Position numbers and translations under genes: made by a program. Positions 4,265 through 58,200 of a stretch of 64,000 nt of DNA are shown here, one piece after another (position 1 is the first letter of the stretch; every line of letters starts with the position of its first letter). Origin of the DNA: Salminus brasiliensis. Its lineage: Eukaryota; Chordata; Actinopteri; Characiformes; Bryconidae. Under the pieces are notes generated by a model. The model saw nothing but the letters and a program-made list of their open reading frames with translations. It had not been told where the DNA came from and made no database searches. Location: assembly GCF_030463535.1 (NCBI RefSeq), contig NC_132892.1:30462936-30526935 (forward strand), written 5' to 3'.

Positions 4265-7200
4265 CTGAAGAAAACATTAGTACTAGTTATTCATTGTGTT
4301 ACTTTACAATGTGTTCCTCAGGTAAACCTCATGATTACAGTTTAAAGTGCTGCTCTAAACCCTTTACAAATGTCTGTATTTCTGTTTAAGATTTAAGCTA
4401 TAATTTGGTCAGATCTTCATCTTATTTCTCTCACTACATGAAGAGAATGACACAAGTTATGTAAATTAATTTCCTGAGCAAACTCAGTACTGAGCATGTC
4501 CAAATAATGTGCAGCTCTAGGAGTATTGGTGTAGTTTTGGTGTAGTTGTAATCAGGTACCAGCAACATCTACAGGAGAATATCAGATTATCCATCTGTTG
4601 CCTGAAGCGTAACTGTAAATGGGCCAAGAAAAAGATACTAGGCACACAAATATGTCTAAAAAGAAATGGGTAAAGCAGGAGAAAATCCCCATTTTGAAGT
4701 CGTAGGACTCTAAAAAGAGTCCTCCACCCAGTATTGCAAAATTAAACCCGATTATCGAAAATGTTTGACTGATGTTCACATACTTTTTTTTCAAATATAT
4801 TTAATGTTGGATCATTCTAAAATAAAATAAAATAAATAAACTTCTATTATAAACTATAATATATTATTATGATTATTATGATGATTATCATCATGTTTTT
4901 CTAGTTTAAGAACTTATGATAAAGATCTAATGACATTTATGATTACATTTATTTAAAAAAACTGAAATTGTAAATGAGTCACAAGCTTTCTAACAACATG
5001 TTATCATTTAATGAAGAATAAGTATGAACACAACACAAATACATACACAAATACAATATTTTCCAATAAGTACTGCCATGCCGAAGATGCTTCTGTGATC
5101 TAAATATCATAGATTTGTGAGTAGATCTTAAACAAGCTGGGCAGCAAGACAACCCAATAACATTTTAGAACTAGAGGCCTTCTACAAAGAGGAGTGGGCA
5201 AACATCCAACTACAAGAACCGAAAGACATTTAGCTACAAAAACCGTGTGTGAGCTTTCTGCTAAAGCTGGTGTTAAAGTCCGGACTCTGTAAGGTGGCCA
5301 ACCTTTTTTTTTATGTTGTGATGGAAAATTTCAAAATATTATGTTTTATATTTGATTAGCTACAGAGGGTGTGTTTACTACTTCTCAATTACAAAAAGAT
5401 GTAATTTGACCAAGGGTGCCCAGTCATTTTTATTGGAATCTGCAGCCACTGTGGCTTCCACTGGACACTGCTGATGTAAATTGAAAACAGTGTTCATACT
5501 GTTCAAGTTGATTTAAATTATAGACAGTAATAAACACTGATTAATCTTATTTTGTCTGTGTGTATAACTATATTGCAATACACTGCTTTTAAATATAATA
5601 TTTGACATTCTTTGTTAATACAGTGTCCAGAATCACTGCTGAAGAACTCTGAGGGATTGCTTGAATGAACATAGTCAAAGCACCTACCTTTTGACTGGAG
5701 CTTCTTCCTTAACTCCTCATTTTCCTTCTCCTTTTTGCTCAGCTCTTCTTTATGCTCTTCCTCCACTTCACGTCTGACTCTTTCTTCCTGAGCCCTCACA
5801 TACATGTCAAGAGAATACGGCTGTGCTTCTATCTTTTTTATAATATCCTCCAGCAGCTTTTCACCTGCTTGTTTGAAGGATTTCCTCAACTCTGTTTTCA
5901 CTATTATGTGTCTCTGATCACACACAGCAAGAAAGTCCCTTATTTCTGTGCTGTGTTCAGTAAACTCTGTGACAGGTTGACTGATCGCATGCTGGGTTGT
6001 GAATAGGACTATTAAATTGTCTTTCACTCTGGAGCTGAAACTCTGCTGAATCTTCTCCATTTCTCCTTTGTGCTCATCAGTGAGGGGACCAACAGGAACG
6101 ACGAAGAGGAAAGCATGGACTCCAGGGTCACAGAGAGAGACACAGTGGAGAGCTGCATACTTCACTTCCTTCTCTTGAGTGTAGCAGAGAGCTGGTATCT
6201 CCACCAGGGTAACTGAGCGTCCAGACACTACTCCAGTTCTCCTCACACACGTTAAGCTGGGCTCTGGACTGTGCTGGCTCTGGCCCAGTATGAGGTCTGA
6301 TATGGAGGCTTTCTGTGCTTCATCATGCCCACAAAGCACCAAGTTCAACCTCTGAGACACTGAATGAGAAAAACAACATATCGTATTAGTCAGGTTTAGA
6401 ACAGAGACGTTTACAATTAAGAACGAGAAATTCGCATGAGCAAAACTGCCCCCTTCACTGGACCCCAAGTCTAAAAGTCTGAACATTTTAATTAACATTT
6501 AAATTGTGGCCAACTAAGAGCTGAATTATTGATGTATTTCTGTGTAAACTGTTCACATAGTAATAATATAGGGGTGAGAAACATTTCATTTAAAACTAGA
6601 AACGTGCATTTCCATAGGAAACTGCAGAATAATCATGCAGCTGAATTGTGCAGGTCAATTCTAGGTGGTTGCTAGGCAGTTGCTATACTGTTTCAACTAA
6701 CAGTACCAACTGCATAGAAATTATGGTTGGTAAGTTGCTTACTATGGTCTTGCTAATCAGTTTCTCTGCTGTTCCAAGTGGCTGCTATGCTGTTGCTAAG
6801 CAGTTGCTATGTTTCCCAGGGTGTTGCTAAATGGGTGTTTTTTGTTAAATGGGGGTGGGGTGCTGCTAGACAGTCGCTATCCCATACATGATGGTTGACA
6901 TGGTGTAGCTAGGTGATTGCTGTTCTGTTCAAGGTAATTGCTATGTGGCAACTATGATCTCCCCACATGGTTGCAATGGAGTTGCTATGTGGTTGCTATG
7001 CTATTTAAGGTGGTTGCGATGTGGCAGTTATAATTTTCCACATGGCTGCAATGGTGTTACTAAGAATACTGCTATTATTAAATTTAGACCATCGGTTCCA
7101 TTGAGATATGGTGGAAAAAACTTGCCTGTCTTGAAAACTGGGGCATTGATTTGGCCGTCAGAAATCTGGGAGAAAAATAGCTTTGCACAATCATCCATGT

Positions 7201-16000: not shown

Positions 16001-18145
16001 TAGTAGATGTAGTATTAGTAGTAGTTGATGTAGTATTAGTAGTAGATGTAGGAGTAGTTTTAGTAGGAGTAGTTTTAGTAGTAGATGTAGTAGTAGGAGT
16101 AGTTTTAGTAGTAGTAGATGTAGTATTATTAGTAGTAGATGTAGGAGTAGGAGTAGTTTTAGTAGTAGTAGATGTAGTATTAGGAGTAGTTTTAGTAGTA
16201 GTAGATGTAGTATTAGTAGTAGATGTAGTAGTAGGAGTAGTTTTAGTAGTAGATGTAGTAGCAGTAGTTTTAGTAGTAGATGTAGTAGCAGTAGTTTTAG
16301 TAGTAGTAGATGTAGTATTAGTAGTAGTAGATGTAGCAGTAGCAGTAGGAGTAATTTTAGTAGTAGTAGATGTTGTATTAATAGTAAAAGTAGATGTAGT
16401 AGTAGGTGTAGTTTTAGTAGTAGTAGATGTAGTAGTAGAAGTTTCAGTAGTAGTAGATGTAGTATTAGTTGTAGATGTAGTAGTAGGAGTAGTTTTAGTA
16501 GTAGTAGATGTAGTATTATTAGTAGTAGATGTAGTAGCAGGAGTAGTTTTAGTAGTAGATGTAATATTAGTTGTAGTAGATATAGTATTAGTAGTAGATG
16601 TAGTAGTAGATGTAGTATTAGTAGTAGTAGATGTGGTAGTAGTAGTTTTAGTAGTAGTAGATGTAGTATTAGAAGTAGATGTAGTAGTAGTAGTAGATGT
16701 AGTTTTAGTAGTAGTAGATGTAGTATTATTAGTAGTAGATGTAGTAGCAGGAGTAGTTTTAGTAGTAGATGTAATATTAGTTGTAGTAGATATAGTATTA
16801 GTAGTAGATGTAGTAGTAGATGTAGTATTAGTAGTAGTAGATGTGGTAGTAGTAGTTTTAGTAGTAGTAGATGTAGTATTAGAAGTAGATGTAGTAGTAG
16901 TAGTAGATGTAGTTTTAGTAGTAGTAGATGTAGTTTTAGTAGTAGTAGATGTAGTATTAGGAGTAGTTTTAGTAGTAGTAGATGTAGTATTAGTAGTAGA
17001 TGTAGTAGTAGGAGTAGTTTTAGTAGTAGATGTAGTAGCAGTAGTTTTAGTAGTAGATGTAGTAGCAGGAGTAGTTTTAGTAGTAGATGTAGTAGCAGTA
17101 GTTTTAGTAGTAGTAGATGTAGTATTAGTAGTAGTAGATGTAGCAGTAGCAGTAGGAGTAATTTTAGTAGTAGTAGATGTTGTATTAATAGTAAAAGTAG
17201 ATGTAGTAGTAGGTGTAGTTTTAGTAGTAGTAGATGTAGTAGTAGAAGTTTCAGTAGTAGTTGATGTAGTATTAGTAGTAGATGTAGTAGTAGGAGTAGT
17301 TTTAGTAGTAGTAGATGTAGTATTATTAGTAGTAGATGTAGTAGCAGGAATAGTTTTAGTAGTAGATGTAATATTAGTTGTAGTAGATATAGTATTAGTA
17401 GTAGATGTAGTAGTAGATGTAGTATTAGTAGTAGTAGATGTGGTAGTAGTAGTTTTAGTAGTAGTAGATGTAGTATTAGAAGTAGATGTAGTAGTAGTAG
17501 TAGATGTAGTTTTAGTAGTAGTAGATGTAGTATTATTAGTAGTAGATGTAGGAGTAGTTTTAGTAGTAGTAGATGTAGTATTAGGAGTAGTTTTAGTAGT
17601 AGATGTAGTAGCAGTAGTTTTAGTAGTAGATGTAGTAGCAGGAGTAGTTTTAGTAGTAGTAGATGTAGTAGTAGTAGTAGTAGATGTAGCAGTAGGAGTA
17701 ATTTTAGTAGTAGTAGATGTTGTATTAATAGTAAAAGTAGATGTAGTAGTAGGTGTAGTTTTAGTAGTAGTAGATGTAGTATTAGTAGTATATGTAGTAG
17801 TAGGAGTAGTTTTAGATGTAGTAGTAGGAGTAGTATTAGTAGTAGTAGATGTATTAGTAGTAGTAGATGTAGTAGTAGTTGTTTTAGTAGTAGATGTAGT
17901 AGGAGTAGATGTAGTAGTGGTCGGAGTAGTTTTAGTAGTAGCAGATGTAGTTTTAGTTGTTGTAGGGTTACATGTAGTAGGAGTAAATGTAGTAAGAGTA
18001 CTTTTAGAAGTTGTAGGAGTAGTTGTCGTTTTAGTAGTAGTAGATGTATTAATATTAGATGTAGTATTAGTAGTAGATGTAGTAGTAAAGTAGATGTAGT
18101 AGTAAAGTAGATGTAGTAGTGGTAGGAGTAGTTTTAGTAGTAGAA
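13099..18145 (+). repeat. GTA/TAG minisatellite, about 5 kb (unit A)
   Basis: Array of GTA/TAG trinucleotide variants (GATGTAG, GTATTAG, GGAGTAG, TTTTAG) grouped in ~45-bp higher-order units. The plus strand has almost no C; the few C residues occur mainly in TAGCTAAGAG, TGACAG and GTAGCAG variants. Open frames of up to ~490 codons (Ser/Arg/Cys- or Val/Asp-only) result from trinucleotide periodicity and are not genes. Confidence 0.95.
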
Positions 18146-18224
18146 GTCATAGTACTTAGAGGTAAACGACTTCCAAATTTAACCACATTCCTCAATGTCT
18201 TTTCAGCTAATCTGTGCCCTCTGG

Positions 18225-20028: not shown

Positions 20029-21935
20029 TCAAAGAATCACACATTTTGATTCAATTTTTAGTTCGCCAATTTCTGCTCGTAATGTCTGAATTTCCTCACT
20101 TTTTTGACCTTCAGTGAGTTTATAGAGATTCTCCAGTAGCTCATACCGTTTCTGATGTTCTTCAGTGAACAACAGGAAGTGTTTATTTTGTCTTTTATTG
20201 AAATCATTGAATTGCTCTGCCTGCTTCCTGGCAATATCTTCATATTTACTCTTCATGTCCTTCATTTCCTGATCATGTTTCTTTTCCAATTCCTCACGTT
20301 CCTTCTTCTCTCTAGTCATGCTTTCTTCCTCTCTCCTCTTAATGTTCTCCTGACATTCTCTTCGTATCTCCTCTTCTCTTTCCTGCAGTCTTTTTCTTTC
20401 TTCTTCTTGTCTTCTTCTCTCCTGCTCTTCCCTCCTCATTTTCTCCATCTCTGCTTCCATTGCACGTTTCTTTTTCTCGTACTCTTTGTCTTTTCGCTCA
20501 CTTTCTTCCCTCCACTTTCGTTTCTCCTCTTCTCGCCGAAGTCTTTCTTCCTCCATATCCCTTTCAAAGTTCTCTCTCATTCTGTCTTGTTCTTCTAGTT
20601 TTGTTCGTAGCTCTTCAGCGTGTCTCTGCCTTCTCTGACGGTCCTCTTCCTTTACTTCCTTCTTCTGTCTTTTCTTCTCGTCTTCCCATTCCCTCAGTTT
20701 ACGCTTCAGGCCCTCTTTTATCTCCTTCCTCTCGTGTTCAGCCTCTTTTATTCTTTTCTCCCAATCACTCCTGTCTTTCTCTTCTCGTTGTCTCCTTCTA
20801 TCCTCCTCCAGATCTCTCTTTCTAATGTCTTCATCTTGTCTCTTTCTCAGATCTTCCATGGCTTGTTTTTGTTGATTTCTGAAATGTTCTTTATCTTGTT
20901 TGTATCTCTCTTCTCTCTTTTTGTCCTCCTCATCTCTCTCATTCAGCTGCTTTTCAAATTCATCTCTCTGCTTTTTATTCTCCATTTCTAACTCATTAAT
21001 CCTGCTTTGCCATTTCTCCATTTGCTTTCTTATTTCTTCTGACCTCACTCTGTCCTCCATCCCCCGTTTCTTCTTTTCTATTTCATCTTTTTCCTCAAAC
21101 TCTTTTTTAAGAGTTTCCATCTTTTCTTTATATTTTCTCTCTATTTGCTGTTTTTCGTAATCTGCCTTTTGTTTTTCTTCCTCCAGTCTTTTCTTCAGCT
21201 CGTCCATTTCTTGGCTGTATTTGGTTTTCAGTTTCTCTTTTTCAGCTTCAATCTCTTGCTCTTTCTCTTTCAGAATTTCCTCAATTTTCTTTTTGACGGA
21301 CATTTCTGCCTCTTGGAACATGCTGTTTGTAAAGAACTGACTTGATGTGTTTGACTTCATCACAGTTTCAATCTGTGTCAGTAGTTCAGAGACTTGGGTG
21401 CGGTCGTTTTTTTCTCGGTTATTGAATAACACAATCCTGTTTCCACAGTCTCTGAGCATCTTATTGACTGGCTCAATTGTACACTTCTCTATGTACTGGT
21501 TTATTGTCTGATCTTCCAGGTCATCTGCTCTAGTGAACAGCACTATGCTGAACATTGCAGCCTTTGGACCAAAGATCATTTTTATCATATCTAAAGTGTC
21601 CACGTCATCTTTGCTGATTCTTCCGATGCTCAGTACAATGATGAACGCATGGGGTCCAGGTGCTGACATCGAGATGCACTTCACAATTTCTTGCTGTATT
21701 TCTTCCTCTGACAGTGTGGCATCAAACAGGCCTGGAGTGTCAACAACAGCAACTGTTCTCCCCAGCACCTCACCAGTTCCTTTTTGGCAAACGTTTGTCA
21801 CAGAATTCATACTGGCTTCAGTAACAAATTCCTTTCTTCCCAGGATAGTGTTTCCTGTTGCACTCTTTCCATTCCCAGTCTTTCCAATCAACACCACTCG
21901 TAAGCAACTGGAAACCCGTTGCTCCTCTTCATCAC
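20029..21935 (-). CDS. gimap8-like: Copy B exon 4: canonical AIG1 domain, coiled coil, CVIL end
   Basis: The acceptor is TTCTTCAG/GTGATG. P-loop GKTGNGKSATGNTILG is intact, with D-T-P-G and T-R-A-D-D. The coiled coil lacks a five-residue segment present in A, C and D (R-R-R-Q-E-E-E against R-R-R-Q-E-D-E-K-R-E-E-E). The C terminus is E-S-K-C-V-I-L; a final Leu usually directs geranylgeranylation. Confidence 0.9.
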
Positions 21936-24900
21936 CTGAAGAAAACATTAGTAGTAGTTATTCATTATGTTGTGATTCTACAGTGTTCAACTAAGGTAAG
22001 CTTCTTGAATACATCTCACAGTGCTGCTGTGAATCATTCACAAATGTCTATTTCTGTTTAAAATTTGACTTACAATATTGTTCAGATCTTCATCTTATCT
22101 AACACAACCTAAAGAGAAAGTTTTTTTTTATTTACTGAGCAGTGAACAGTCCCTGGGACGTGCAGAGATTCTGTGCGCGTTACCGGCGTGTTCAGGTCAA
22201 CTCAACAACAAAGTTTGCGGTTCATGTTCAGGCGAGGCTCTAGAGGCAAGCGAGGTACGTTCGCTTCCATTTAGTTCCAAGGCAACCTACGTTCAGGGCA
22301 GCACGGCTAAGTCAGGTTAGGTCGGCCTTGCCCTTTAGTCTAGTGACTCTAGTTCATGGCTCATGTTCAGGCGAGGTTCTCTGACTTCCTCTAGAGGCAA
22401 GCGAGGTACGTTCGCCTCCGTTTTGGTTCCAAGGTGACTTACCTTCAAGGCAGCACGCTGCACAGCCAGGTTCGGTCGGTCTTTCCCTTTTGTTCTAGCA
22501 GTTCCAAGGCAACGCACATTCAAGGCACCGCGCTGTAAAGTCAGGTTGTTCGGCCTTGCCCCTTTTGTCTAGCGGCTGGTTCCCCAGCCTCCCCCCTCTT
22601 GTTTACATAGCAACTCTGCCCTTTTGTCCTGTTACCCCCCGTTGCCCAAGCACAGCTTGTGGTTCTATGTTCAGGTCCCTTCGTTGGTTCTACCCTAGCT
22701 ACGTACTGTTCTCCACGTTCAGCTCCCTGCTCCTCCCAGTCCCAGGTTTGTTATGTTTGCCATCTCGCTTGTCATGTTTTGATTCTGTTCACTATTTTGC
22801 CCTCTGTTGCTGCTCACGTTTTTCATACCCCTTGTGTTTGTGCTTGTTTTGGTTAATAAACCAAATTTGCTTTGATTTCCGTCTCTGCGAGTGTTCATCC
22901 CTTCAGGTCTGGCCTCACACGCCCTGACAGGTCTACAAATGGATACATTTCAGCACAACTGTTACTCCCCCATGGAGTGGTAAAAAGTGTGTGGTGAATG
23001 GTATTATGAAAATTAAATTTGAGTCCACCATCAGGCAAGCACTGAACCGAATGTTGTGCATGGCAAAATAGCAAAGAGTAATCTCTCCAAAACAAAACTT
23101 TCTGTCTGAAGATTACTTAATGACATGGACAAGCCAACAACTTATTGGAAAAATGCTCTGTGGACATGAGAAGCGTGATGTTTACCAGAAATCAAACACT
23201 GCATTTCAACATAAGAACCTCATCCTGACTGCTAAGCATGGGGGTATCGTGCCATGGTTTAGGACTGCATTGTTGCTACAGGTTTGCCATTATGGATGGA
23301 CCTATAAATTCTACAATGGCAGTAAGGCAATACTGCACAGGTGGTTGGAAGACACAAAATGCCAGTAAACCCTGGATGCAAACATCCAACCATCTGTTAT
23401 AAAAGAAGCTGAACAGAGGAAGGCTTCTATAACAGGATAATGATCCAAAACATACCTAAAAATCCACTGTCTAAATATCATAGAAAATATGTGAATAAAT
23501 CTTAGACAAGCTGTGCAGCAAGGCAATCCAACAACATTTTAGAACCAAGAGGTTCAAAGGAGAGTGGAAAAATATCCAACTACAAGAACCAAGAAACATT
23601 TAGCTACAAAACGCATGTGAGCTTTCTGCTAAAGTCCTGTTTAAGTCCTAACTCTGCTGGTACCCAACCTTTGCCCAACCTATGTTCAGGGTGACGTAAA
23701 CTCTGTGTTCATTCCATAAAAATAATTATACTGAATTATAGACAGTTATAAACACAGATTCATCTTATTTTGTCTGCTTATGTAACTATAAAGCAACACA
23801 CTGCTTTTAAATATAACTACTGAATCCTACTTCTGAAGAACTCTGAGGGATTGCTTGAATGAACATAGTCAAAGCACCTACCTTCTGACTGGAGCTTCCT
23901 CCTTAACTCCTGGATTTCCTTCTCCTTTTTGCTCAGCTCTTCTTTATGCTCTTCCTCCACTTCACGTCTGACTCTTTCTTCCTGAGCCCTCACATACATG
24001 TCAGGAGAATACGGCTGTGCTTCTATCTTTTTTATAATATCCTCCAACAGCTTTTCACCTGCTTGTTTGGAGGATTTCCTCAACTCTGTTTTCACTATTA
24101 TGTGTCTCTGATCACACACAGCAAGAAAGTCCCTTATTTCTGTGTTGTGTTCAGGAAACTCTGTGACAGGTTGACTGATCGCATGCTGGGTTGTGAATAG
24201 GACTATTAAATTGTCTTTCACTCTGGAGCTGAAACTGTCCTGAATCTTCTCCATTTCTCCTTTGTGCTCATCAGTGAGGGGACCAACAGGAACGACGAAG
24301 AGGAAAGCATGGACTCCAGGGTCACAGAGAGAGACACAGTGGAGAGCTGCATACTTCACTTCCTTCTCTTGAGTGTAGCAGAGAGCTGGTATCTCCACCA
24401 GGGTAACTGAGCGTCCAGACACTACTCCATCTCTCCTCACACACGTTAAGCTGGGCTCTGGACTGCGCTGGCTCTGGCCCAGTATGAGATCTGATATGGA
24501 GGCTTTCTGTGCTCCATCATGCCCACAAAGCACCAAGTTCAACCTCTGAGACACTGAATAAGAAAAACATTAGTATTAGTCAGGTTTAGAACAGAGACGT
24601 TTACAATTTAAGAACGAGAAACTCACATAAGTGAAAAATACAAATGATGTAACGATATTCAGTAATTTAATCCATTAATGGTTAGATACACATACACTGT
24701 AAAGTGTTGAGTTTACAACATTGGGAAAGCAATTGCCTAACTTTTGTTTAAGTATAAAGTCAATTTTAGGTTAAGTCTACAAATTAGCTTTTAGGCTGAT
24801 TATTCTTTATTAAAATAGTGGATACATTATGAAGATCATGATCAAGTAATGTTTACTAGAAATTTGCAAATATTTGCTATTTAGTTCCTTTTAAACACAA

Positions 24901-27900
24901 ATAAAATGTCAGTTTAATCAAAAACCTTATCACCTTTAAAAAAACTGTATTTAGAAACATTATCATTTAAATTGTGGCCTACTAAGAACTGAATTATTCA
25001 TGTATTTCTGTGTAAATAAATAAACTGTATATGTAGTGATAATACTGCAGCCACATTCCCCTCGTTAACCTCATGCACAACACCTGGGACTGTGGCTACA
25101 AAAGCTCTGTGCAGTCATGAACTCTGCCGTGAATTCGCAGAATCATTTTGGGTCTGGAGGTTTTCATAGCCAGCTCTATTATTTTCTTTCAGTGCCATGT
25201 TGCTTGTGCTCTGCTTGTATTGTTTGTTAGTTTTGTCCCTTAGTTTGTCCCTTAATTTGCTACCTTGCTTTATCTACCTTAAGCTGCATCTTGTGTTACC
25301 CTGCCATTGTTTATTAAAGTCTTGCATCATACCATTCCCTGCAAGTGTTTCCTAGTTTGTCAGACCAGGCATGACAGAGACGTGCATTTCCAGAAGAAAA
25401 TGCAGTGATTGTGCAGCTGAAACCATTCCTAGGTGAATTCTAGGCGATTTCAATGGCTGCTGCTATGCTGTTCTAAGTGGTTGCTATACTGTTTTTAAGT
25501 CATTGATATGCTGTTGCTAAACAGTGCCTACAGTATCCCAGGTAGAATCCCAACTGCTGTGCAGTTGATAAGTTGCTTAGAATGGTCTTGCTAATCAGTT
25601 TTTCTGCTGTTCCAAGTGATTGTTATGCTTTTGCTAGGCAGTTCCCATGTGTCCCAGGCAGTTGTTTCGATGTTGCTAGATGAAGTTGTTATATGGTGTG
25701 GTGCTGCTAGCTAATTGCTATGCCATATATGATGGTGTGCAGTATGTTGCTAGGAGGTTGCTCTGGTATTCAAGAATCACCTAGAGACAACAGATTCCCG
25801 GGAACTGCTGGATTTCACAATGATCTTGCCATCTTCTTTGAGAACTCACTGTTTGTTTACTCCATCTTCAGAACCACAAAGCCTTGGTGTAGTCATGAAT
25901 GACCAGTTATCGTTCTCAACTCATGTTGCAATTCTAACTCGGTCATGCAGATTTTTCCTTTTTAACATCCATTAGAATTAATGCATCTAGGCTTTTTTTA
26001 TGTCCTGGCACCAAAGTGTTGGAACGATGCTAAGTTAGTTTCAAGTGGTTCCAATGCTAAGTTGTTGTTAAATGTTGGTGAGGTGCTGCTAGTGAGCTGC
26101 TATGCCACATATGATGGTTGCAAGGGTATCGCTAGGAGGTTGCTATGCTATTTAAGGTGGTTGCTATATGGCATTTATAATATCCCACATGGCTGCAAGG
26201 GATATTGTAGACTAGGCATACTGCTATCATTAAAAACATTTGCACCCAAATCTAAACCATTGGTTTCTATGAGATAAAAATTTGACCAAAAATTGCTATG
26301 TGGAGTCTGTACATCAAATCAAAATGCGGTATAGAAGTACACCATTCCTGATAACTTCTATAACAGAATAGTGACCCAAAACATATCTAAAAATTTCAGT
26401 GGCATGTCCTTCACAATACCCTGATCTAAATATCATAGAACATTTGTGAAAAGACCTTAAACAAGCTGGGCAGTAAGACAACCCAAAAACACCTCAGAAC
26501 TAGAGGCCTTCTACAAATAAATGTGAAAAAACATCCCATAAAAAATAATGACACTTAATCATAGACTGTAATAAACACTGATGAATCTTGTTGTCCACTC
26601 ATATACAGTAGATGAAAAAAGTATTAAACACATCACCCATTTTCTAAGTAAACATATTTCTAAAAGGTGCTATTGACTAAGTAGACATGAAAATAAAAAC
26701 GTAGCTGTCCATAAATTAAAGTTGTGTGTATTAATGAGAAATGATACAGTAAAAAGTATTGAACACATGAAGAAAGAGAGATGCAAAAAGCCATGGAAAG
26801 TCACAACACCAGCTGAAATCTATCAGTGATTAGAAAGCAATCCTGCCACTTAGTGCAAATTAATATCAGCTGCTTCAACTGATGGCCTTTAAAAAGCTGT
26901 CTCAATACCAAAGTACCACACAAGAAACATTTCATAATAGGTAAAACCAGTGAGCTCTCTCAAGACCTTTGTAACTTTATTGTTGTAAAACATGCGGATG
27001 GCACTGGTACAGAAGACGTTCTAATCTACTAAAGGTCCCAGTGAGCATTGTTGGGGCCATAATCTGGAAGTGGAAAGAACATAATTTCTTCAAAAAAACA
27101 GCCACGACTAGGTGCTCCCCGCAAGAGTTCAGACAGAGGAGTGAAAAGAGTAATCAGAAGAAGTGTTCAAGAGCCAAGGACAACCTGTGGAGAGCTACAG
27201 AAAGATGTGGAATCAGCAGGTACTAAACAATAAGTAATGCACTCAGCCACCATGGCTTGTACACAGGCTCACCACGTAAGACTCCATTGCTGAGGAAAGG
27301 CAGGTTGAAGCACGTTTGAAGTTCCCTCTCAATATTTAGATTAAGCCTGATGTCTTGCCTGCCTCTGTTTTGTGTTACCATGTGCTGCTCTGTTTGTTTC
27401 CTGTCTGTTCTAGCCCCTCCTGTTCATTAGTGTTCCCACCTGTGCCTCCTCCCTAGCCACGCCCCTTGTTTGTCCCTGTCTATAAGTACCCCTTTGTTTC
27501 AGCCTTCCTCTGTCTGGTCTTGTGTATGTTAACATGTATATGCTTCCATGACGTGGGAATATCCTGGTGTGGTGCTGTTTTTCAGCACTGACATGCTTCA
27601 TATAATTGGAGGAAGAATTAATGGATAAATGTACCACGCTCTTGATAAAAAATCTGCTGCCATCTACCAGGATGATGATGAGACAAAGGTGGACATATCA
27701 GCACGATCCCAAACACACAGTCAAGAAAACTAAAAGCTGCTAGGATGGCCCGGCCACTCACCCGACCTGAATCCAAGTCAAGTCATGTGGCTTTTATTGT
27801 CATTTCAGCTCTGTACAAGTATATAGTGGAATGAAATTACGTTTTCTCCAGAACTAGGGTGCAACATGGAACAAAACGAGAACAAAAACAAAACATTGCA

Positions 27901-30900
27901 GCCTGCAGAAAGTGCAACATGCAAGACAGTACAATAAATACTCAATTCTGGGTATTAAGTGTAAGGTGCCTAGATATTTAACAGATATACAACGCACATG
28001 AAACACAGCAGGTACTGAGGTAGTAAAGTGTGGAATATATAAATAGAATAAATGCAAACAGGTTAAAATGCTATGGATTGTGCGGGTTCATAGATTTTCA
28101 ATTGAAATAAAGTTCAGTTCATAGAAGGAGCACACATAAGCTTCAGGATTTGAAGAGTGTTTGTGTGGAGGAATGAGTCAAAATCACACCTGATTTTCCA
28201 TATTGGAGGTGTCTTGAAGCTGTTATCACCAACAATAAATTCTGTGTTTAATACTTTGAAAAAGTGAACTGAAAAACCCTGGGTTGCTTTAATGAATATA
28301 AAGTCAAAGCACCTACCTTCTGACTGGAGCTTCTTCCTTAACTCATTTTCCTTCTCCTTTTTGCTCAGCTCTTCTTTATACTCTTCCTCCACTTCATGTC
28401 TGACTCTTTTTTCCTGAGCCCTCACATACATGTAAAGAGTATATGGCTGTGCTTCTATCTTTTTTATAATATCCTCCAGCAGCTTTTCACCTGCTTGTTT
28501 GGAGGATTTCCTCAACTCTGTTTTCACTATTATGTGTCTCTGATCACACACAGCAAGAAAGTCCCTTATTTCTGTGTTGTGTTCAATAAAATGTGTGACG
28601 CGTTGACTGATCGCATGCTGGGTTGTGAATAGGACTATTAAATTGTCTTTCACTCTGGAGCTGAAACTCTCCTGAATCTTCTCCATTTCTCCTTTGTGTT
28701 CATCAGTGAGGGGACCAACAGGAAAGACGAAGAGGAACGCATGGACTCCAGGGTCACAGAGAGAGACACAGTGGAGAGCTTCATACTTCACTTTTCTCTT
28801 TTGAGTGTAGCAGAGAGCTGGTATCTCCACCAGGGTAACTGAGCGTCCAGACACTACTCCAGTTCTCCTCACACACGTTAAGCTGGGCTCTGGACTACGC
28901 TGGCTCTGGCCCAGTATGAGGTCTGATATGGAGGCTTTCTGTACTCCATCATTTCCACATAGAACCAAGTTCAACCTCTGAGACACTGAATGAGAAAAAC
29001 AACATATCGTATTAGTCAGGTTTAGAACAGAGACGTTTACAATTAGTTAGATGCACATACACTGTAATGTGTTGATTTTACAACACTGGGAAAGCAACTG
29101 CCTTACTTTTTTAGGGTATAAAATCAATTTTAAGTTAAGTCTACAAATGAACTGGTTATTAAATAGTGGATACATTTAGGATCGAGTAATGTTTACTAGA
29201 AATGTACTTATATTTGCTGTTTAGTTCCTTTTAAATACAAATAGTTGGACAACAGTATACAACAGTTTATTCAAAAACCTTTGTACCTTTTGTAGTAATG
29301 TTCATTTTGAATGAACATTACTACAAACTTGTAATAAACATTGTAATGTTTCATTTCATCTTGCTAATCAGTGTCTCTGTTGTTTCAAGTTTGTGCCATG
29401 CTGTTGCTAAGCAGTTGCTATGTATCCCAGGGTGTTGCTAGGATGTTGCTAAGTTGTTGTTAAATGTTGGTGGGGTGCTGCTAGCCAGTTGCTATCCCAT
29501 AGATGATGGGAGAAAGGGTGTTTCAAGGTGGTTGCTATGTGGCAGCTATTATGTCCCACATGGTTACAAGCGTGTTGCTAGGTGGTTGCTATGCTATGTA
29601 AGGAGGTTGCTATGCTGTAGTTATAATATCCCACATGGCTGCAAGGGTGTTATTAGGCATACTGCTATCATTAAGAACTTGCACTCAAATTTAGACCATT
29701 GGTTTCTATGGGATAAAAATTGGACAAGAAAACTTTGCTACGTGGAAACTGTACATCAAATAAACACCTTCCTGAGCAAACACCTTAAAGTTCTAATATT
29801 TGTCTCTGAAACTGGGGGGTTGATTTGGCCGGCAGAAACATGGGAGAAAAATAGCACAGTCACTAATAAGATTGAGTATTACACACCCTCGTTATCTTGT
29901 TTACCACCACAAGTGAGTCTCTGCAACAGACTTCCAAGTCCTCCTCCTGGTTCTGGAATAAAGCATAGTAATGTGATTATTACAGTTTTCTGTAATAATG
30001 CAGTTCTAATACCTGATTTATTGCAATAAATAAATCAGGTATTTAAAAAAGGATTATGGTATTTTGAGGGCCAGAGGGAGGGGGAGGCTAAAACTAATTT
30101 AAATAATTAAATAATTACCTCAACAAATGAAACTGTTTCCCTTGATTTTAACTGCATTTTTTCTGCACTTACTTTTCTTTCTCTGTGTTGTTGATTCAGT
30201 CTCTCTCTGTTCTGTTGATTCAGGGTCTGTCTGTGTTGTTGATTCAGTGTCTCTCTGTGTTGTTGGTTCAGTCTTTCTCTGATCTGTTGATTCAGTCTCT
30301 CTCTGTTCTGTTGATTCAGTGTCTGTCTGTTCTGTTGATTCAGTCTCTCTCTGTGCTGTTGATTCAGTCTCTCTCTGTTCTGTTGATTCAGTGTCTCTCT
30401 GTGTTGTTGATTCAGTGTCTGTCTGTGCCGTTGATTCAGTGTCTCTCTGTGCTGTTGATTCAGTCTCTCTCTGTGCTGTTGATTCAGTGTCTGTCTGTGC
30501 TGTTGATTCAGTCTCTCTCTGTTCTGTTGATTCAGTGTCTCTCTGTTCTGTTGATTCAGTGTCTGTCTGTGCTGTTGATTCAGTCTCTCTCTGTGCTGTT
30601 GATTCAGTCTCTCTCTGTTCTGTTGATTCAGTGTCTCTCTGTGCCGTTGATTCAGTCTCTCTCTGTTCTGTTGATTCAGTGTCTCTCTGTGCTGTTGATT
30701 CAGTGTCTCTCTGTGCTGTTGATTCAGTGTCTGTCTGTGCCGTTGATTCAGTGTCTCTCTGTGCTGTTGATTCAGTCTCTCTCTGTGCTGTTGATTCAGT
30801 GTCTGTCTGTGCCGTTGATTCAGTGTCTCTCTGTGTTGTTGATTCAGTCTCTCTCTGTTCTGTTGATTCAGCGTCTGTCTGTGCTGTTGGTTCAGGCTCT

Positions 30901-33900
30901 CTTTCTGCTGTTGATTCAGTGTCTGTCTGTGCCGTTGATTCAGTGTCTCTCTGTGTTGTTGATTCAGTCTCTCTCTGTGCTGTTGATTCAGTGTCTGTCT
31001 GTGCCGTTGATTCAGTCTCTCTCTGTGTTGTTGATTCAGTCTCTCTCTGTGCTGTTGATTCAGTCTCTCTCTGTGCTGTTGATTCAGTGTCTGTCTGTGC
31101 CGTTGATTCAGTGTCTCTCTGTGTTGTTGATTCAGTCTCTCTCTGTTCTGTTGATTCGGTCTCTGTCTGTGCTGTTGATTCAGCGTCTGTCTGTGCTGTT
31201 GGTTCAGGCTCTCTTTCTGCTGTTGGTGGTCGAGGCTTTTGCTGTTCTGTTGCAGGTGGAGCCATCACAAATTCCTCCCATTTAAGGTGACCTCCTCCAT
31301 TCTCTTCAACCATCTTCTCCATCAGCTCCACAAGAGCAGACGGACTGCTTCCACTTCTAAAGTCAAAATGCCAGTTACTGAACTCTGCTATGATCTCATC
31401 AGAGACATTCTCTTCATCTGGATCTACACTGCTGCCGGGTTGCGTCAGCACTATGGTGTATTTACAGGCCTCCTCAGATAAAGACCGGAGGATGAAATTC
31501 AGCTGTTTCCTGTCTGCCTCAGTGAAGTCGTCTCGCTGTAGGACCAGAACTAGAACATGAGGTCCAGGAAGACACAGAGACATGCACTCTCTCACTCGCT
31601 CATCCAGTTCCTCGTTAGAGAGTTCAGTATCAAACAGGTGAGGAGTGGTGACGAGGCTGAAGCTTTTTCCCTTCACGTTTCCTCTTGCTCCCTCACTGCG
31701 GTGAGGAGGAGTTTCAGCATCGAACGCATCTCTTCCCAGAATGAAGTTTCCCACTCTTCTGTTTTCCTGGTCGTTCTTCCCCAGCAGCAGAATCTGCACT
31801 GCGTAATGACAGCGATACTCTTAAATCCACAATATTTCCCACAATTTCATGCAAATTCAAAAACACTCTAATGGTTAATGGTCCAACTTATGATTTCTGA
31901 AGAACAGAACATGTAATTGAAAGAATTCAGTGTAGTAAATCCAGAGAGTAGGAATTCAGTGTAACTTACTGAATGGAGGCTGGTTTAGACTTTGCGTCCT
32001 CCGAGGTTGTAATGGATCTGTGCCACAAACAGGAGTTACGAGTTACTTTCCCATGTACTAATGTTATGCAGCTGTGACATCTAATTCTAGGTGGAAGGCC
32101 ACATTAGGTCTCTATCTGTAAATCTAGAAGCATTCCAACAAACTCCAACAAACCAAACAGCAAATCCTTCAACATTAATATATTACTACATTACCTGAAA
32201 ATGAGCATCTGGTTATAAAGACACACATTATTAGTTAAAAACGTTCCAGTTTGCACTGAATTTCACATTCCTCCAGTGATTTCACATCTGTTTGAACTGC
32301 ACACTTCACATCAGTCTACTCCCTCTACTATAAAGTCAACACTGGTTTTGGTTTGAGCCTGTCATACCTGCCTCTGTTCTGTTCTGTCATACCTGCCACT
32401 GTTCTGTTCTGTCATACCTGCCTCTGTTCTGTTCTGTCATACCTGCCTCTGTTCTGTTCTGTCATACCTGCCACTGTTCTGTTCTGTCATACCTGCCTCT
32501 GTTCTGTTCTGTCATACCTGCCTCTGTTCTGTTCTGTCATACCTGCCTCTGTTCTGTTCTGTCATACCTGCCTCTGTTCTGTTCTGTCATGTCTGCCTCT
32601 GTTCTGTTCTGTCATGCCTGTCTCTGTTCTGTTCTGTCATGCCTGCCTCTGTTCTGTTCTGTCATACCTGCCACTGTTCTGTTCTGTCATGCCTGCCTCT
32701 GTTCTGTTCTGTCATACCTGCCTCTGTTCTGTTCTGTCATACCTGCCACTGTTCTGTTCTGTCATACCTGCCACTGTTCTGTTCTGTCATACCTGCCACT
32801 GTTCTGTTCTGTCATACCTGCCACTGTTCTGTTCTGTCATACCTGCCTCTGTTCTGTTCTGTCATACCTGCCTCTGTTCTGTTCTGTCATACCTGCCACT
32901 GTTCTGTTCTGTCATGCCTGCCACTGTTCTGTTCTGTCATACCTGCCTCTGTTCTGTTCTGTCATACCTGCCACTGTTCTGTTCTGTCATACCTGCCTCT
33001 GTTCTGTTCTGTCATACCTGCCTCTGTTCTGTTCTGTCATACCTGCCACTATTCTGTTCTGTCATACCTGCCACTGTTCTGTTCTGTCATGCCTGCCTCT
33101 GTTCTGTCATGCCTGCCACTGTTCTGTTCTGTCATACCTGCCACTGTTCTGTTCTGTTCTGTCATACCTGCCACTGTTCTGTTCTGTCCTGTCATACCTG
33201 CCACTGTTCTGTTCTGTCATACCTGCCGCTGTTCTGTTCTGTCATGTCTGCCTCTGTTCTGTTCTGTCATGTCTGCCTCTGTTCTGTTCTGTCATGCCTG
33301 CCTCTGTTCTGTTCTGTCATGCCTGCCACTGTTCTGTCATGCCTGCCACTGTTCTGTCATGCCTGCCTCTGTTCTGTTCTGTCATACTTGCCTCTGTTCT
33401 GTTCTGTCATACCTGCCTCTGTTCTGTTCTGTCATACTTGCCTCTGTTCTGTCATGTCTGCCTCTGTTTTGTGTTGCTGTGTGCTCCAAAGCTCTGTTTG
33501 CGTCTTGTCTGTCCTAGCCCTACCTGTCCATTAGTGTTTCCACCAGTGTCTCCTTTGTAACCACGCCCCCTGTTACTCTCAGGTGTTCCTCATTATCCTC
33601 TGTATAAGTTACACTTTGTTTCAGTTGTGCCTTGTCTGGTCTTGTGCATGTTTGTGTTCATGATTGTGGGCGTTCATGTTTTTGTTTGTTTTGTTTTATA
33701 TTTCTATATTAATAAATATCCTGTGTGTCCGCCTCCGTCTCCAAGTGTGAAAAACCGTGACAGAAGACCAGACCCGCAAATGGATGTAGCAGGTAATCCC
33801 TGGGCCAGATGCGCTCTTAGGAAGGAGAAAGAGCCCTTCTCCACCCGAGGCTGCAGGAGACGGTTTTCCCTGCAGGAGAGGGTTCCCGGGTTCCCGGGTC

Positions 33901-34891: not shown

Positions 34892-34973
34892 TTCTGGGGG
34901 CTTTTGGAGCTGAAATCTAAAGTGGAATCCGGAAACTTTCAGCAGCTCCCTCTCCGAATCACAGGATCTGGTG

Positions 34974-34979
34974 TTTATA
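34974..34979 (-). promoter_or_regulatory. TATA box of copy B
   Basis: TATAAA, 83 bp upstream of the copy B ATG, in a context almost identical to copy A. The presumed leader contains GAAAGTTTCC where A has GAAACCTTCC. Confidence 0.5.
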
Positions 34980-35282
34980 GTGTAGACTATTATTTATCCT
35001 CACATTTAGTCTGAAAGCTCATCTTACATCTGACTTCTAAATATAGCGTAATCTGAAGCCCTGGGTCCGCCTCTCTGATCCAGGGTCTGTCTGTGGCTCT
35101 GTCTTCATAACTTTCATAACGACATATTCATATTTATGATCATAAATAACAGTATTGTTGAGTGTTACCTGGGTTTAAACCTACACTGGGATCAGTTCAC
35201 TCACTGTATGTGCTCCTGAGCACTTGGGGTCTACGCCTAATTCCTAAACTCCATTTCTGCGTCATTACAATTCACACATCTG

Positions 35283-35296
35283 CCACTAGATGGCGC
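35283..35296 (+). promoter_or_regulatory. CTCF-like core motif, unit B
   Basis: Same 14-base core at the same place relative to exon 1 (about 390 bp upstream of the ATG). Confidence 0.4.
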
Positions 35297-35732
35297 TATA
35301 GTATCATCAGCGGCTCTTACAGCGCTGTCTCTTTACTGATGGTTTGCCAGGTAAGTAAGGTAAGGCAAGACGACTGTAAGCACACCTTCAATTCAGATAT
35401 TTTAATATTCCAGTGAAGTACACTGAAGTTATGCAAAACTATAGTCGATATTTATCGAAATATGATATTATTTATGTAAACAAAATAGTACAGATGTAAT
35501 GTACCCTTCTCACCAACGATTGCTGTTGTTTATTCTTGTAAGAATTATTTCAGCCCTTAGATTACTGCTATAATACACAGTACACACAAATATATCATAC
35601 CATTAATTATGCTTATTCATAACACATGACATCATCTTTTGATAAATACATTAATTAATAATAAAAAGACAGAAAAAAGTATATTACTGAACATAAATAT
35701 ACTCTTAATATTATAATTAAAACGACTGGAAT

Positions 35733-35880: not shown

Positions 35881-35919
35881 TCTCCAGTGTTTTGTAATTA
35901 GTCTGCGGTAGACATTTAA

Positions 35920-41798: not shown

Positions 41799-44700
41799 CT
41801 GAAGAAAACATTAGTACTAGTTATTCATTGTGTTACTTTACAATGTGTTCCTCAGGTAAACCTCATGATTAAAGTTTAAAGTGCTGCTCTAAACCCTTTA
41901 CAAATTCTGTTTAAGATTTAAGCTATAATTTGGTCAGATCTTCATCTTATTTCTCTCACTACATGAAGAGAATGACACAAGTTATGTAAATTAATTTCCT
42001 GAGCAAACACTGAGCATGTCCAAATAATGTGCAGCTCTAGGAATATTGGTGTAGTTTTGGTGTAGTTGTAATCAGGTACCAGCAACATCTACAGGAAAAT
42101 ATCAGATTATCCATCTGTTGCCTGAAGCGTAACTGTAAATGGGCCAAGAAAAAGATACTAGGCACACAAATATGTCTAAAAAGAAATGGCAGAAGCAGGA
42201 GAAAATCCCCATTTTGAAGTCGTAGGACTCTAAAAAGAGTCCTCCACCCAGTATTGCAAAATTAAACCCGATTATCGAAATATACTATAAATATATATAC
42301 TTTTTTTCAAATGTATTTAATGTTGGATAATTCTAAAATAAAATAAAATAAATAAACTTCTATTATAAACTATAATATATTATTATGATGATTATCATGT
42401 TTTTCTAGTTTAAGAACTTATGATAAAGATCTAATGACATTAAAAAAACTGAAATTGTAAATGAGTCACAAGCTTTCTAACAACATGTTATCATTTAATG
42501 AAGAATAAGTATGAACACAACACAAATACATACACAAATACAATATTTTCCAATAAGTACTGCCATGCCGAAGGTGCTTCTGTGATCTAAATATCATAGA
42601 TTTGTGAGTAGATCTTAAACAAGCTGGGCAGCAAGACAATCCAATAACATTTTAGAACTAGAGGCCTTCTACAAAGAAGAGTGGGAAAACATCCAACTAC
42701 AGGAACCGAAAGACATTTAGCTACAAAAACCGTGTGTGAGCTTTCTGCTAAAGCTGGTGTTAAAGTCCGGACTCTGTAAGGTGGCCAACCTTTTTTTTTT
42801 ATGTTGTGATGGAAAATTTCAAAATATTATGTTTTATATTTGATTAGCTACAGAGGGAGTGTTTACTACTTCTCAATTACAAAAAGATGTAATTTGACCA
42901 AGGGTGCCCAGTCATTTTTATTGGAATCTGCGGTCACTGTGGCTTCCACTGGACACTGCTGATGTAAATTGAAAGCAGTGTTCATACTGTTCAGGTTGAT
43001 TTAAATTATAGACAGTAATAAACACTGATTAATCTTATTTTGTCTGTGTGTATAACTATATTGCAATACACTGCTTTTAAATATAATATTTGACATTCTT
43101 TGTTAATACAGTGTCCAGAATCAATGCTGAAGAACTCTGAGGGATTGCTTGAATGAACATAGTCAAAGCACCTACCTTCTGACTGGAGCTTCCTCCTTAA
43201 CTCCTGGATTTCCTTCTCCTTTTTGCTGAGCTCTTCTTTATGCTCTTCCTCCACTTCACGTCTGACTCTTTCTTCCTGAGCCCTCACATACATGTCAAGA
43301 GAATACGGCTGTGCTTCTATCTTTTTTATAATATCCTCCAACAGCTTTTCACCTGCTTGTTTGGAGGATTTCCTCAACTCTGTTTTCACTATTATGTGTC
43401 TCTGATCACACACAGCAAGAAGGTTCCTTATTTCTGTGCTGTGTTCAGTAAACTCTGTGACAGGTTGACTGATCGCATGCTCTGTTGTAAACAGGACTAT
43501 TAAATTGTCTTTCACTCTGGAGCTGAAACTGTCCTGAATCTTCTTCATTTCTCCTTTGTGTTCATCAGTGAGGGGACCAACAGGAACGACGAAGAGGAAA
43601 GCATGGACTCCAGGGTCACAGAGAGAGACACAGTGGAGAGCTTCATACTTCACTTCCTTCTCTTGAGTGTAGCAGAGAGCTGGTATCTCCACCAGGGTAA
43701 CTGAGCGTCCAGACACTACTCCAGCTCTCCTCACACACGTTAAGCTGGGCTCTGGACTGTGCTGGCTCTGGCCCAGTATGAGGTCTGATATGGAGGCTTT
43801 CTGTGCTCCATCATGTCCACACAGCACCAGGTTCAACTTCTGAAACACTGAATGAGAAAAACAACATATCGTATTAGTCAGGTTTAGAACAGAGACCTCT
43901 ACAATTAAGAACGAGAAATTCACATGAGGAAAACTGCCCCCTTCACTGGACACCAAGTCTAAAAGTCTGAACATTTTAATTAACATTTAAATTGTGGCCA
44001 ACTAAGAGCTGAATTATTGATGTATTTCTGTGTAAACTGTTCACATAGTAATAATATAGGGGTGAGAAACATTTCATTTAAAACTAGAAACGTGCATTTC
44101 CATAAGAAACTGCAGAATAATCATGCAGCTGAATTGTGCAGGTCAATTCTAGGTGGTTGCTAGGCAGTTGCTATACTGTTTCAACTAACAGTACCAACTG
44201 CATAGAAATTATGGTTGGTAAGTTGCTTACTATGGTCTTGCTAATCAGTTTCTCTGCTGTTCTAAGTGGCTGCTATGCTGTTGCTAAGCAGTTGCTATGT
44301 TTCCCAGGGTGTTGCTAAATGGGTGTTTTTTGTTTAATGGGGGTGGGGTGCTGCTAGACAGTCGCTATCCCATACATGATGGTTGACATGGTGTAGCTAG
44401 GTGATTGCTATTCTGTTCAAGGTAATTGCTATGTGGCAACTATGATCTCCCCACATGGTTGCAATGGAGTTGCTATGTGGTTGCTATGCTATTTAAGGTG
44501 GTTGCGATGTGGCAGTTATAATTTTCCACATGGCTGCAATGGTGTTACTAAGAATACTGCTATTATTAAATTTAGACCATCGGTTCCATTGAGATATGGC
44601 GGAAAAGAACTTGCCTGTCTTGAAAACTGGGGCATTGATTTGGCCGTCAGAAATCTGGGAGAAAAATAGCTTTGCACAATCATCCATGTAATACTCACCC

Positions 44701-55278: not shown

Positions 55279-58200
55279 CTGAAAGTAACATTAGTACTAG
55301 TTATTCATTGTGTTACTTTACAATGTGTTCCTCAGGTAAACCTCATGATTACAGTTTAAAGTGCTGCTCTAAACCCTTTACAAATGTCTGTATTTCTGTT
55401 TAAGATTTATGTAAATTAATTTCCTGAGCAAACTCAGTACTGAGCATGTCCAAATAATGTGCAGCTCTAGGAATATTGGTGTAGTTTTGGTGTAGTTGTA
55501 ATCAGGTACCAGCAACATCTACAGGAGAATATCAGATTATCCATCTGTTGCATGAAGTGTAACTGTAAATGGGCCAAGAAAAAGATACTAGGCACACAAA
55601 TATGTCTAAAAAGAAATGGAGAAAGCAGGAGAAAATCCCCATTTTGAAGTCGTAGGACTCTAAAAAGAGTCCTCCACCCAGTATTGCAAAATTAAACCCG
55701 ATTATCGAAAATGTTTGACTGATGTTCACATACTTTTTTTCAAATGTATTTAATGTTGGATAATTCTAAAATAAAATAAAATAAATAAACTTATATTATA
55801 AACTATAATATATTATTATGATTATTATGATGATTATCATCATGTTTTTCTAGTTTAAGAACTTATGATAAAGATCTAATGACATTTATGATTACATTTA
55901 TTTAAAAAAACTGAAATTGTAAATGAGTCACAAGCTTTCTAACAACATGTTATCATTTAATGAAGAATAAGTATGAACACAACACAAATACATACACAAA
56001 TACAATATTTTCCAATAAGTACTGCCATGCCGAAGGTGCTTCTGTGATCTAAATATCATAGATTTGTGAGTAGATCTTAAACAAGCTGGGCAGCAAGACA
56101 ACCCAATAACATTTTAGAACTAGAGGCCTTCTACAAAGAAGAGTGGGCAAACATCCAACTACAATAACCGAAAGACATTTAGCTACAAAAACCGTGTGTG
56201 AGCTTTCTGCTAAAGCTGGTGTTAAAGTCTCTGTAAGGTGGCCAACCTTTGAACACTGATGATTTAGACTTTTATGTTGTGATGGAAAATTTCAAAATAT
56301 TATGTTTTATATTTGATTAGCTACAGAGGGTGTGTTTACTACTTCTCAATTACAAAAAGATGTAATTTGACCAAGGGTGCCCAGTCATTTTTATTGGAAT
56401 CTGCAGCCACTGTGGCTTCCACTGGACACTGCTGATGTAAATTGAAAGCAGTGTTAAATTATAGACAGTAATAAACACTGATTAATCTTATTTTGTCTGT
56501 GTGTATAACTATATTGCAATACACTGCTTTTAAATATAATATTTGACATTCTTTGTTAATACAGTGTCCAGAATCAATGCTGAAGAACTCTGAGGGATTG
56601 CTTGAATGAACATAGTCAAAGCACCTACCTTTTGACCGGAGCTTCTTCCTTAACTCCTCATTTTCCTTCTCCTTTTTGCTGAGCTCTTCTTTATACTCTT
56701 CCTCCACTTCACGTCTGACTCTTTCTTCCAGAGCCCTCACATACATGTCAAGAGAATACGGCTGTGCTTCTATCTTTTTTATAATATCCTCCAGCAGCTT
56801 TTCACCTGCTTGTTTGAAGGATTTCCTCAACTCTGTTTTCACTATTATGTGTCTCTGATCACACACAGCAAGAAAGTCCCTTATTTCTGTGTTGTGTTCA
56901 GTAAACTCTGTGACAGGTTGACTGACAGCATGCTCTGTTGTAAACAGGACTATTAAATTGTCTTTCACTCTGGAGCTGAAACTGTCCTGAATCTTCTTCA
57001 TTTCTCCTTTGTGCTCATCAGTGAGGGGACCAACAGGAACGACGAAGAGGAAAGCATGGACTCCAGGGTCACAGAGAGAGACACAGTGGAGAGCTTCATA
57101 CTTCACTTCCTTCTCTTGAGTGTAGCAGAGAGCTGGTATCTCCACCAGGGTAACTGAGCGTCCAGACACGACTCCAGTTCTCCTCACACACGTTAAGCTG
57201 GGCTCTGGACTGTGCTGGCTCTGGCCCAGTATGAGGTCTGATATGGAGGCTTTCTGTGCTTCATCATGCCCACAAAGCACCAAGTTCAACCTCTGAGACA
57301 CTGAATGAGAAAAACAACATATCGTATTAGTCAGGTTTAGAACAGAGACGTCTACAATTAAGAACGAGAAATTCACATGAGCAAAACTGCCCCCTTCACT
57401 GGACCCCAAGCCTAAAAGTCTGAACGTTTTAATTAACATTTAAATTGTGGCCAACTAAGAGCTGAATTATTGATGTATTTCTGTGTAAACTGTTCACATA
57501 GTAATAATATAGGGGTGAGAAACATTTCATTTAAAACTAGAAACGTGCATTTCCATAGGAAACTGCAGAATAATCATGCAGCTGAATTGTGCAGGTCAAT
57601 TCTAGGTGGTTGCTAGGCAGTTGCTATACTGTTTCAACTAACAGTACCAACTGCATAGAAATTATGGTTGGTAAGTTGCTTACTATGGTCTTGCTAATCA
57701 GTTTCTCTGCTGTTCCAAGTGGCTGTTATGCTATTGCTAAGCAGTTGCTATGTTTCCCAGGGTGTTGCTAAGTTTTTGTTAAATGGGGGTGGGGTGCTGC
57801 TAGACAGTCGCTATCCCATACATGATGGTTGACATGGTGTAGCTAGGTGATTGCTATTCTGTTCAAGGTAATTGCTATGTGGCAACTATGATCTCCCCAC
57901 ATGGTTGCAATGGAGTTGCTATGTGGTTGCTATGCTATTTAAGGTGGTTGCGATGTGGCAGTTATAATTTTCCACATGGCTGCAATGGTGTTACTAAGAA
58001 TACTGCTATTATTAAATTTAGACCATCGGTTCCATTGAGATATGGCGGAAAAGAACTTGCCTGTCTTGAAAACTGGGGCATTGATTTGGCCGTCAGAAAT
58101 CTGGGAGAAAAATAGCTTTGCACAATCATCCATGTATTACTCACCCAAGTCATCCTGTTTACCACCACGAGAGAATATCTGCATCAGGCCCCCAAATCTT

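Follow-up and report, generated by a model that had tools for sequence, protein, structure and literature searches.

A GIMAP8-like gene with a duplicated exon

The 64,000-nucleotide stretch of the Salminus brasiliensis genome analysed here (contig NC_132892.1, positions 30,462,936 to 30,526,935; hereafter the window) contains four related minus-strand GIMAP genes in tandem, D, A, B and C. One of them, gene B, is a multi-AIG1 gene of GIMAP8-like type and contains a tandem duplication of a segment that reaches from intron 2 to intron 3 and includes exon 3. Gene B carries four AIG1 units in one open reading frame, and "GIMAP8-like" is assigned here by the count of such units (three or more). Coordinates are positions in the 64-kb window, all exons described lie on the minus strand, and a slash marks a splice point. 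The features of gene B are as follows:

30173..31820, minus strand, exon 2: degenerate AIG1 unit followed by a coding 24-base-pair (bp) minisatellite; donor A/GTAAGTGC, phase 1
28317..28985, minus strand, exon 3b: 669 bp, phase 1-1, degenerate AIG1 unit, the more diverged copy
24554..28316, minus strand, intron between exons 3b and 3a: 3763 bp, holds the duplication junction
23882..24553, minus strand, exon 3a: 672 bp, phase 1-1, degenerate AIG1 unit
20029..21935, minus strand, exon 4: canonical AIG1 unit with GKTGNGKS, long charged tail, stop codon

Position 31820 is the start of the exon 2 open frame, the acceptor of which is probably AG/AG at 31820/31819. The charged tail of exon 4 is probably a coiled coil, as judged by inspection of its sequence.

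The initial annotation had described 28985-28317 and 24553-23882 as complete exon 3 copies, and it was correct in the coordinates, the splice sites, the lengths divisible by three (669 and 672 bp), the phase 1 at both ends and the lack of stops. The acceptors of the two copies read ...ttctcattcag/TG and ...ttcttattcag/TG, and the donor AAG/GTAGGTGC is identical in all five exon 3 copies of the window, 3b and 3a included; the splice sites of exon 3b are as good as those of the other copies. The two exons of gene B share 94.5% DNA identity across the exon, well beyond chance, and differ at 20 of 222 aligned residues, and the sole indel within exon 3b is a deletion of one whole codon. Of the five copies, exon 3b has diverged most; exon 3a is nearest to its counterpart in gene C, with 17 differences in 669 coding bases.

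The junctions 2-3b, 3b-3a and 3a-4 are all in frame, so that exons 2-3b-3a-4 form one open frame. Counted from the start of the exon 2 open frame to the stop codon, this frame has 1631 residues with both copies, 1408 without 3b, 1407 without 3a and 1184 with neither. All four combinations stay open, which bears out the proposal that exon 3 copies can be added or skipped without a change of frame. The further claim that every intron of the gene is phase 1 holds for three introns, the one that follows exon 2 and those that follow the two exon 3 copies; the intron of exon 1 was not confidently identified. A scan for phase-1 GTRAG donors about 4-6 kb upstream of exon 2 did not confidently locate an exon 1 with a start codon: three short candidates are common to the four genes, none is convincing, and two would create a stop at the exon 2 junction as placed. 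This result counts against our reading of gene B.

A possible phase-1 mini-exon of 60-66 bp was noticed within intron 2 (29887-29952, minus strand; PGGGLGSLLQRLTCGGKQDNE in gene B), with counterparts near 44.7, 7.2 and 58.2 kb. Its donor is present in all four genes, and its outer acceptor is CAG in gene B and CAC in genes A, C and D. The sequence of this candidate appears as divergent as that of the introns.

A search of the window with exon 3a returned five copies of exon 3: genes A, C and D have one each, and gene B has two. The genes and the three exons used for comparison are:

60034-53357, minus strand: gene D, AIG1-related exons 2, 3 and 4
46311-39880, minus strand: gene A, AIG1-related exons 2, 3 and 4
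31820-20029, minus strand: gene B, AIG1-related exons 2, 3b, 3a and 4
10371-2343, minus strand: gene C, AIG1-related exons 2, 3 and 4
56629..57300, minus strand: exon 3 of gene D, found with 3a
43176..43847, minus strand: exon 3 of gene A, found with 3a
5688..6359, minus strand: exon 3 of gene C, found with 3a

The additional unit has an AIG1 fold and a degenerate P-loop

Pfam was run on eight of the 13 exons of the array, and AIG1 was matched in all eight. Within gene B, the AIG1 profile (PF04548) scored 82.9 bits for exon 3b, 78.9 for exon 3a, 73.9 for exon 2 and 224.8 for exon 4, against a cutoff of 27, while NCBIfam gave nothing above its cut-offs for exons 3b, 3a and 4. A structure model of exon 3b shows a GIMAP-type GTPase fold. 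The G1 P-loop motif of GTPases is GxxxxGKS/T. In exon 3 this motif is degenerate, reading GNDGVQKA in 3b and GHDGAQKA in 3a, with glycine replaced by glutamine and serine by alanine; exon 2 has no P-loop, GKNDQENRR standing in its place. Among the units of gene B, an intact G1 P-loop is found only in exon 4 (GKTGNGKS).

Because key G1 residues are lost, we class exon 3 as an AIG1-fold unit and not as an active GTPase, and the added unit is probably a pseudo-GTPase. The suggestion that gene B has gained a fourth AIG1 domain is thus upheld by profile and fold, with the reservation that the G1 motif of the additional domain is degenerate. Together, these data support an in-frame duplication of an exon within gene B that would add a fourth AIG1-fold unit to its product.

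Constraint on exon 3b and its possible use

A comparison of the ratio of replacement to silent substitution rates (dN/dS, or omega in the codon model) between the two exon 3 copies had been proposed as a check on constraint. It yielded values, and these do not separate 3b from the other copies or from neutrality. Pairwise dN/dS involving 3b was 0.46-0.72, and the codon model put omega at 0.75 for the 3b branch and at 0.64 for the rest of the tree (p = 0.76). None of the other branches differed from the rest (p = 0.39 for 3a, 0.135 for A, 0.088 for C and 0.32 for D), and only the A branch fell below 1 (omega 0.34, p = 0.043, uncorrected); this branch model has little power, and its assumption of a single tree is broken by conversion (see below). 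Counts of private codons, which omit gapped codons and codons where the other four copies disagree, gave replacement-to-silent numbers of 12:3 for 3b, 1:1 for 3a, 4:1 for A, 0:0 for C and 3:2 for D. Relative to the majority consensus of the other four copies, with ties settled arbitrarily, exon 3b carries 34 substitutions, and 21 base changes are exclusive to it.

Several of these results speak against our reading that both copies are used, and would fit an exon 3b that is genuine but skipped or being lost, its open frame left by gene conversion and not by selection. The omega of 0.75 on its branch is not different from 1 (p = 0.51), nor is that of the whole exon 3 set (0.68, p = 0.14); its private codons show an excess of replacement changes; and 28% of copies in a neutral simulation with 34 substitutions contained no stop. 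That 3b is the most divergent copy points the same way. However, both of its splice sites match the quality of those in the other copies, and its AIG1 score is no lower than that of 3a. Moreover, introns gain about 0.12 indels for each substitution, and at that rate 34 substitutions would be expected to bring about four indels, mostly frame-breaking, whereas only one, a whole codon, is found. We consider an unused exon 3b unlikely. An open frame alone is weak evidence; taken with the intact splice sites and the single whole-codon deletion, it leans towards use of 3b.

Exon 3b also differs from the other copies in charge. Its net charge is +3 and that of the other four is -4 or -5, a shift matched in about 1-2% of random-substitution simulations, in a test picked after the changes had been seen. 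The more basic character of 3b (28318-28983, minus strand) includes a change of EKE to KRK at residues 62-64, where the helix that follows the degenerate G3 motif begins. This charge difference and the 20 differing residues between 3b and 3a would suit alternative exons, mutually exclusive or tissue-specific, that give two three-domain isoforms. But exclusivity is not forced by the frame, both lengths being multiples of three and double inclusion remaining open, and the 3763-bp intron between the copies is too long for steric interference between exons. This arrangement seems to us rather improbable.

Extent and age of the duplicated segment

Self-alignment of gene B matched 29764-29560 to 26322-26114 and 26500-26355 to 23545-23424, with exon 3 lying between. 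Because these alignments flank exon 3 on both sides, the duplicated unit extended from intron 2 into intron 3:

26355..29764, minus strand: first unit copy, end of intron 2, exon 3b and start of intron 3
26323..26354, minus strand: junction filler of about 32 bp aligning with neither side, read by eye
23424..26322, minus strand: second unit copy, end of intron 2, exon 3a and start of intron 3

Gene B thus holds adjacent homologous exons with homologous flanking intron in one gene, as expected of a tandem exon duplication. The first unit has gained about 1.6 kb of intron 3 sequence (near 28.2-26.6 kb), a stretch that cannot be aligned to the other copies and is matched by just two short segments in the rest of the window. 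GTTGCTA repeats upstream of both exons had been taken as a sign that part of intron 2 was duplicated. This inference was sound and the alignment confirms it, adding part of intron 3. The repeat itself is a trait of intron 2 in every gene copy: 35 of its 36 plus-strand occurrences in the window fall in the counted intron 2 stretches, with nine upstream of 3b, six upstream of 3a, seven each in A and C, and six in D. Two of the seven in A, two of the seven in C and two of the six in D, and none in B, lie inside a 76-bp repeat.

The intron 2 stretches of 3a and 3b share a run of 14-16 bases and a longer insert, both without counterpart in A, C and D, which suits a duplication within the lineage of gene B. 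Two observations weaken this placement. The intron 2 substitution distances form a near-trichotomy (3a-3b 0.220, 3a-C 0.253, 3b-C 0.203) and do not order the duplication relative to the split of gene B, and a poor alignment of far intron 3 puts 3a with C. Intron 3 past its first 50 bp or so, and far intron 2, are too divergent or gapped for use.

Exons and introns of the array record different histories

In the usable part of intron 2, genes A, C and D are about 1% apart (0.009-0.011), and gene B differs from those three by 20-26%. Within gene B, 3a and 3b are 22% apart in alignable intron 2 and 5% apart in the exons. Silent divergence in exon 3 was 2-11% over all pairs and likewise between B and the other genes, 4-7% (0.042-0.070) among A, C and D, and 7.7% between 3a and 3b. 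In all seven pairs with a B copy, the exon was significantly closer than intron 2, while in all three pairs among A, C and D, exon 3 was significantly further apart than intron 2. All ten pairs thus lie in the direction expected of an exon-intron conflict for this part of intron 2, although the pairs are not independent and the p values are uncorrected. When introns 2 and 3 were pooled and all exon sites were used, the contrast persisted for A-C (p = 0.006) and C-D (p = 0.026).

In the AIG1 part of exon 2, genes B and A differ at two of 558 bases, none of them silent, and silent divergence in exon 4 is 0.03-0.09 between B and the others, overlapping the 0.02-0.08 among A, C and D. Among the sites that split 3a, 3b and C, 26 in exon 3 favour 3a with C against 8 and 6 for the other two groupings, compared with 32 against 49 and 41 in intron 2 and 60 against 27 and 34 in the poorly aligned far intron 3. 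Within exon 3, 102 of 171 informative site pairs are incompatible with any single tree.

Tract edges are clear upstream of 3b and near 3a. Upstream of 3b, 58-60 of 60 bases are identical, followed by 5-6 of 20; upstream of 3a, identity is 80-95% across about 80 bases and then falls to 6-7 of 20; and downstream of 3a, 40 of 40 bases are identical, followed by 12-13 of 20 and 1 of 20. Similarity upstream of exon 4 falls within about 40 bp.

These patterns strongly support an overwriting of exons by gene conversion in a shared exon pool, and conversion from genomic DNA, with tracts that tended to end where the introns cease to match, would be the simplest account. Conversion templated by complementary DNA (cDNA) was rejected: ahead of 3b the identity continues for about 60 bp of intron, and past 3a for 40 bp, an extension impossible from spliced cDNA. 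Some results run counter to conversion. The pooled contrast was not significant for A-D (p = 0.30), 3a becomes similar again further into intron 3 (14-17 of 20), and downstream of 3b identity drops at once (17, 15, 11 and 1 of 20) with no identical stretch. Upstream of exon 2 there is no tract edge within 200 bp, gene B resembling the other genes over at least that distance, and a clustering test like the pairwise homoplasy index (PHI) was weak (p = 0.05, 0.10, 0.24 and 0.10, depending on window).

Selection could in principle hold the exons together while the introns drift fast, with no conversion at all; exon conservation above that of introns is the usual pattern, and selection on silent sites can yield low silent divergence. 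Purifying selection alone was rejected as the source of the exon similarity, exon 3 not being slow among A, C and D, where its silent divergence of 0.042-0.070 stands against 0.009-0.011 in intron 2. Nor would it be expected to leave zero silent changes between B and A in 558 bp of exon 2 next to an intron 2 in B that is 20-26% off the others, or incompatible site patterns inside exon 3, and we regard it as very unlikely. A misjoining of two haplotypes or two genes into gene B, conceivable in a repeat-rich region known from one assembly, is scarcely credible, given intron 2 flanks of 3a and 3b that are about 22% apart with different insertions (far beyond two alleles), a defined junction between the units, and the presence of just one exon 2 and one exon 4, with both copies lying between them.

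If conversion refreshed the exons, as it seems to have done, exon 3b has had a shorter time to drift than the age of the duplication implies, and the lack of stops is weakened as evidence of constraint. Exon duplication is itself ordinary in kind; the exon-intron conflict is more informative, since it alters how the intact frame is read.

A proposed history of gene B

Taken together, the data lead us to favour, as moderately probable, an intragenic tandem duplication with inclusion of both copies and later conversion of the exons. The short filler at the junction points most readily to error-prone joining of the break or to illegitimate unequal exchange. From the intron 2 distances, the duplication may date from roughly the time when gene B separated from the common ancestor of the other three genes. 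Conversion tracts at exon 3 would since have extended some 40-80 bp into the intron, so that exons stay close and introns do not.

With standard splice signals and phase 1 at both ends, both copies should enter the mRNA as exon 2-3b-3a-4. In the predicted product, three degenerate AIG1 units would precede a single canonical GTPase, which ends in a long charged tail. Gene B could thus make a four-unit protein where its neighbours would make a three-unit one, and the extra unit is probably a non-catalytic binding or assembly module beside the GTPase of exon 4. A wider idea, which we put forward as speculative and on balance doubtful, is that AIG1 exons act as exchangeable cassettes: conversion would move exon sequence between genes, with exon 3 tracts ending a few tens of bases into the introns, in-frame duplication would set cassette number, and 3b, having drifted from the pool with a charge shift from about -4 to +3, would give a four-unit immune protein a new surface for binding.

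Comparison with known gene families

Teleost GIMAP families can be very large, with up to nearly 190 genes described in one account (PMC9245644). Mammalian GIMAP8 has three GTPase domains, a structure that has been called highly unusual (PMC8201404, PMC3100574, PMC4201521). Like GIMAP8, gene B holds several AIG1 units in one polypeptide; unlike it, gene B has four units, each within one exon, and its tested introns are phase 1. Joining of exon 2 to exon 5 in mouse Gimap8 was expected to be out of frame (PMC4201521), whereas skipping of exon 3 in gene B is in frame. In the snail Biomphalaria glabrata, most AIG/GIMAP genes encode each AIG1 domain in one exon, so that dual domains take two, and many of the genes are arranged in tandem (PMC7053062). 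Gene B, of a different lineage, resembles them in its one exon per unit and its tandem array; duplication of a single AIG1 exon within one gene is not described in the sections of that account consulted.

About 4-7% of vertebrate genes are reported to contain a duplicated full exon (PMC12343006), and in EBF/COE genes a duplicated exon is reported to have become mandatory (PMC2394523). Compared with tandem exon duplication of this type, gene B gains a whole GTPase-fold domain, in an array with apparent exon conversion. Work on the zebrafish NLR-B30.2 family argued from synonymous divergence that gene conversion had hit separate exons differently (PMC4852459). That family is likewise a large fish immune family with uneven conversion, but its proteins are different, and the contrast here is between exon and intron and includes two copies inside one gene. 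In the portions of the open-licence literature consulted, we found neither a fish gene with an AIG1 exon duplicated inside it nor exon conversion in GIMAP genes.

The extra intact AIG1 cassette of gene B, beside three sister genes without one, offers a direct test of the effect of domain number on the protein. The disagreement of exon and intron histories suggests that coding sequence only can yield misleading gene trees in the GIMAP family, and that an open reading frame alone neither dates nor proves constraint at this locus.

Repeats and spacers in the array

A coding 24-bp minisatellite, encoding an eight-residue unit such as TESTAQTD, is present in exon 2 of all four genes, and its frame is uninterrupted in each:

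58381-59439: gene D, about 44 copies
44909-45716: gene A, about 34 copies
30180-31225: gene B, about 44 copies
7446-9774: gene C, about 98 copies

A 1303-bp spacer stretch upstream of gene B is 99% identical to that of gene D, and those of A and D are also 99% identical (34600-35902, 47388-48690 and 60835-62137). With this 99% spacer identity set against more than 20% divergence in intron 2, gene B looks like an old island inside a recently homogenised array. Upstream of its exon 2 lies a 25-bp minisatellite of 44 copies (32359-33452), the only one of that unit among the arrays listed, at the place where the young spacer meets the divergent gene B. Long satellite arrays of the GTAGTA/GTAGAT type occur between and beside the genes at 13105-18147, 36544-37893, 49335-50917 and 62124-62703.

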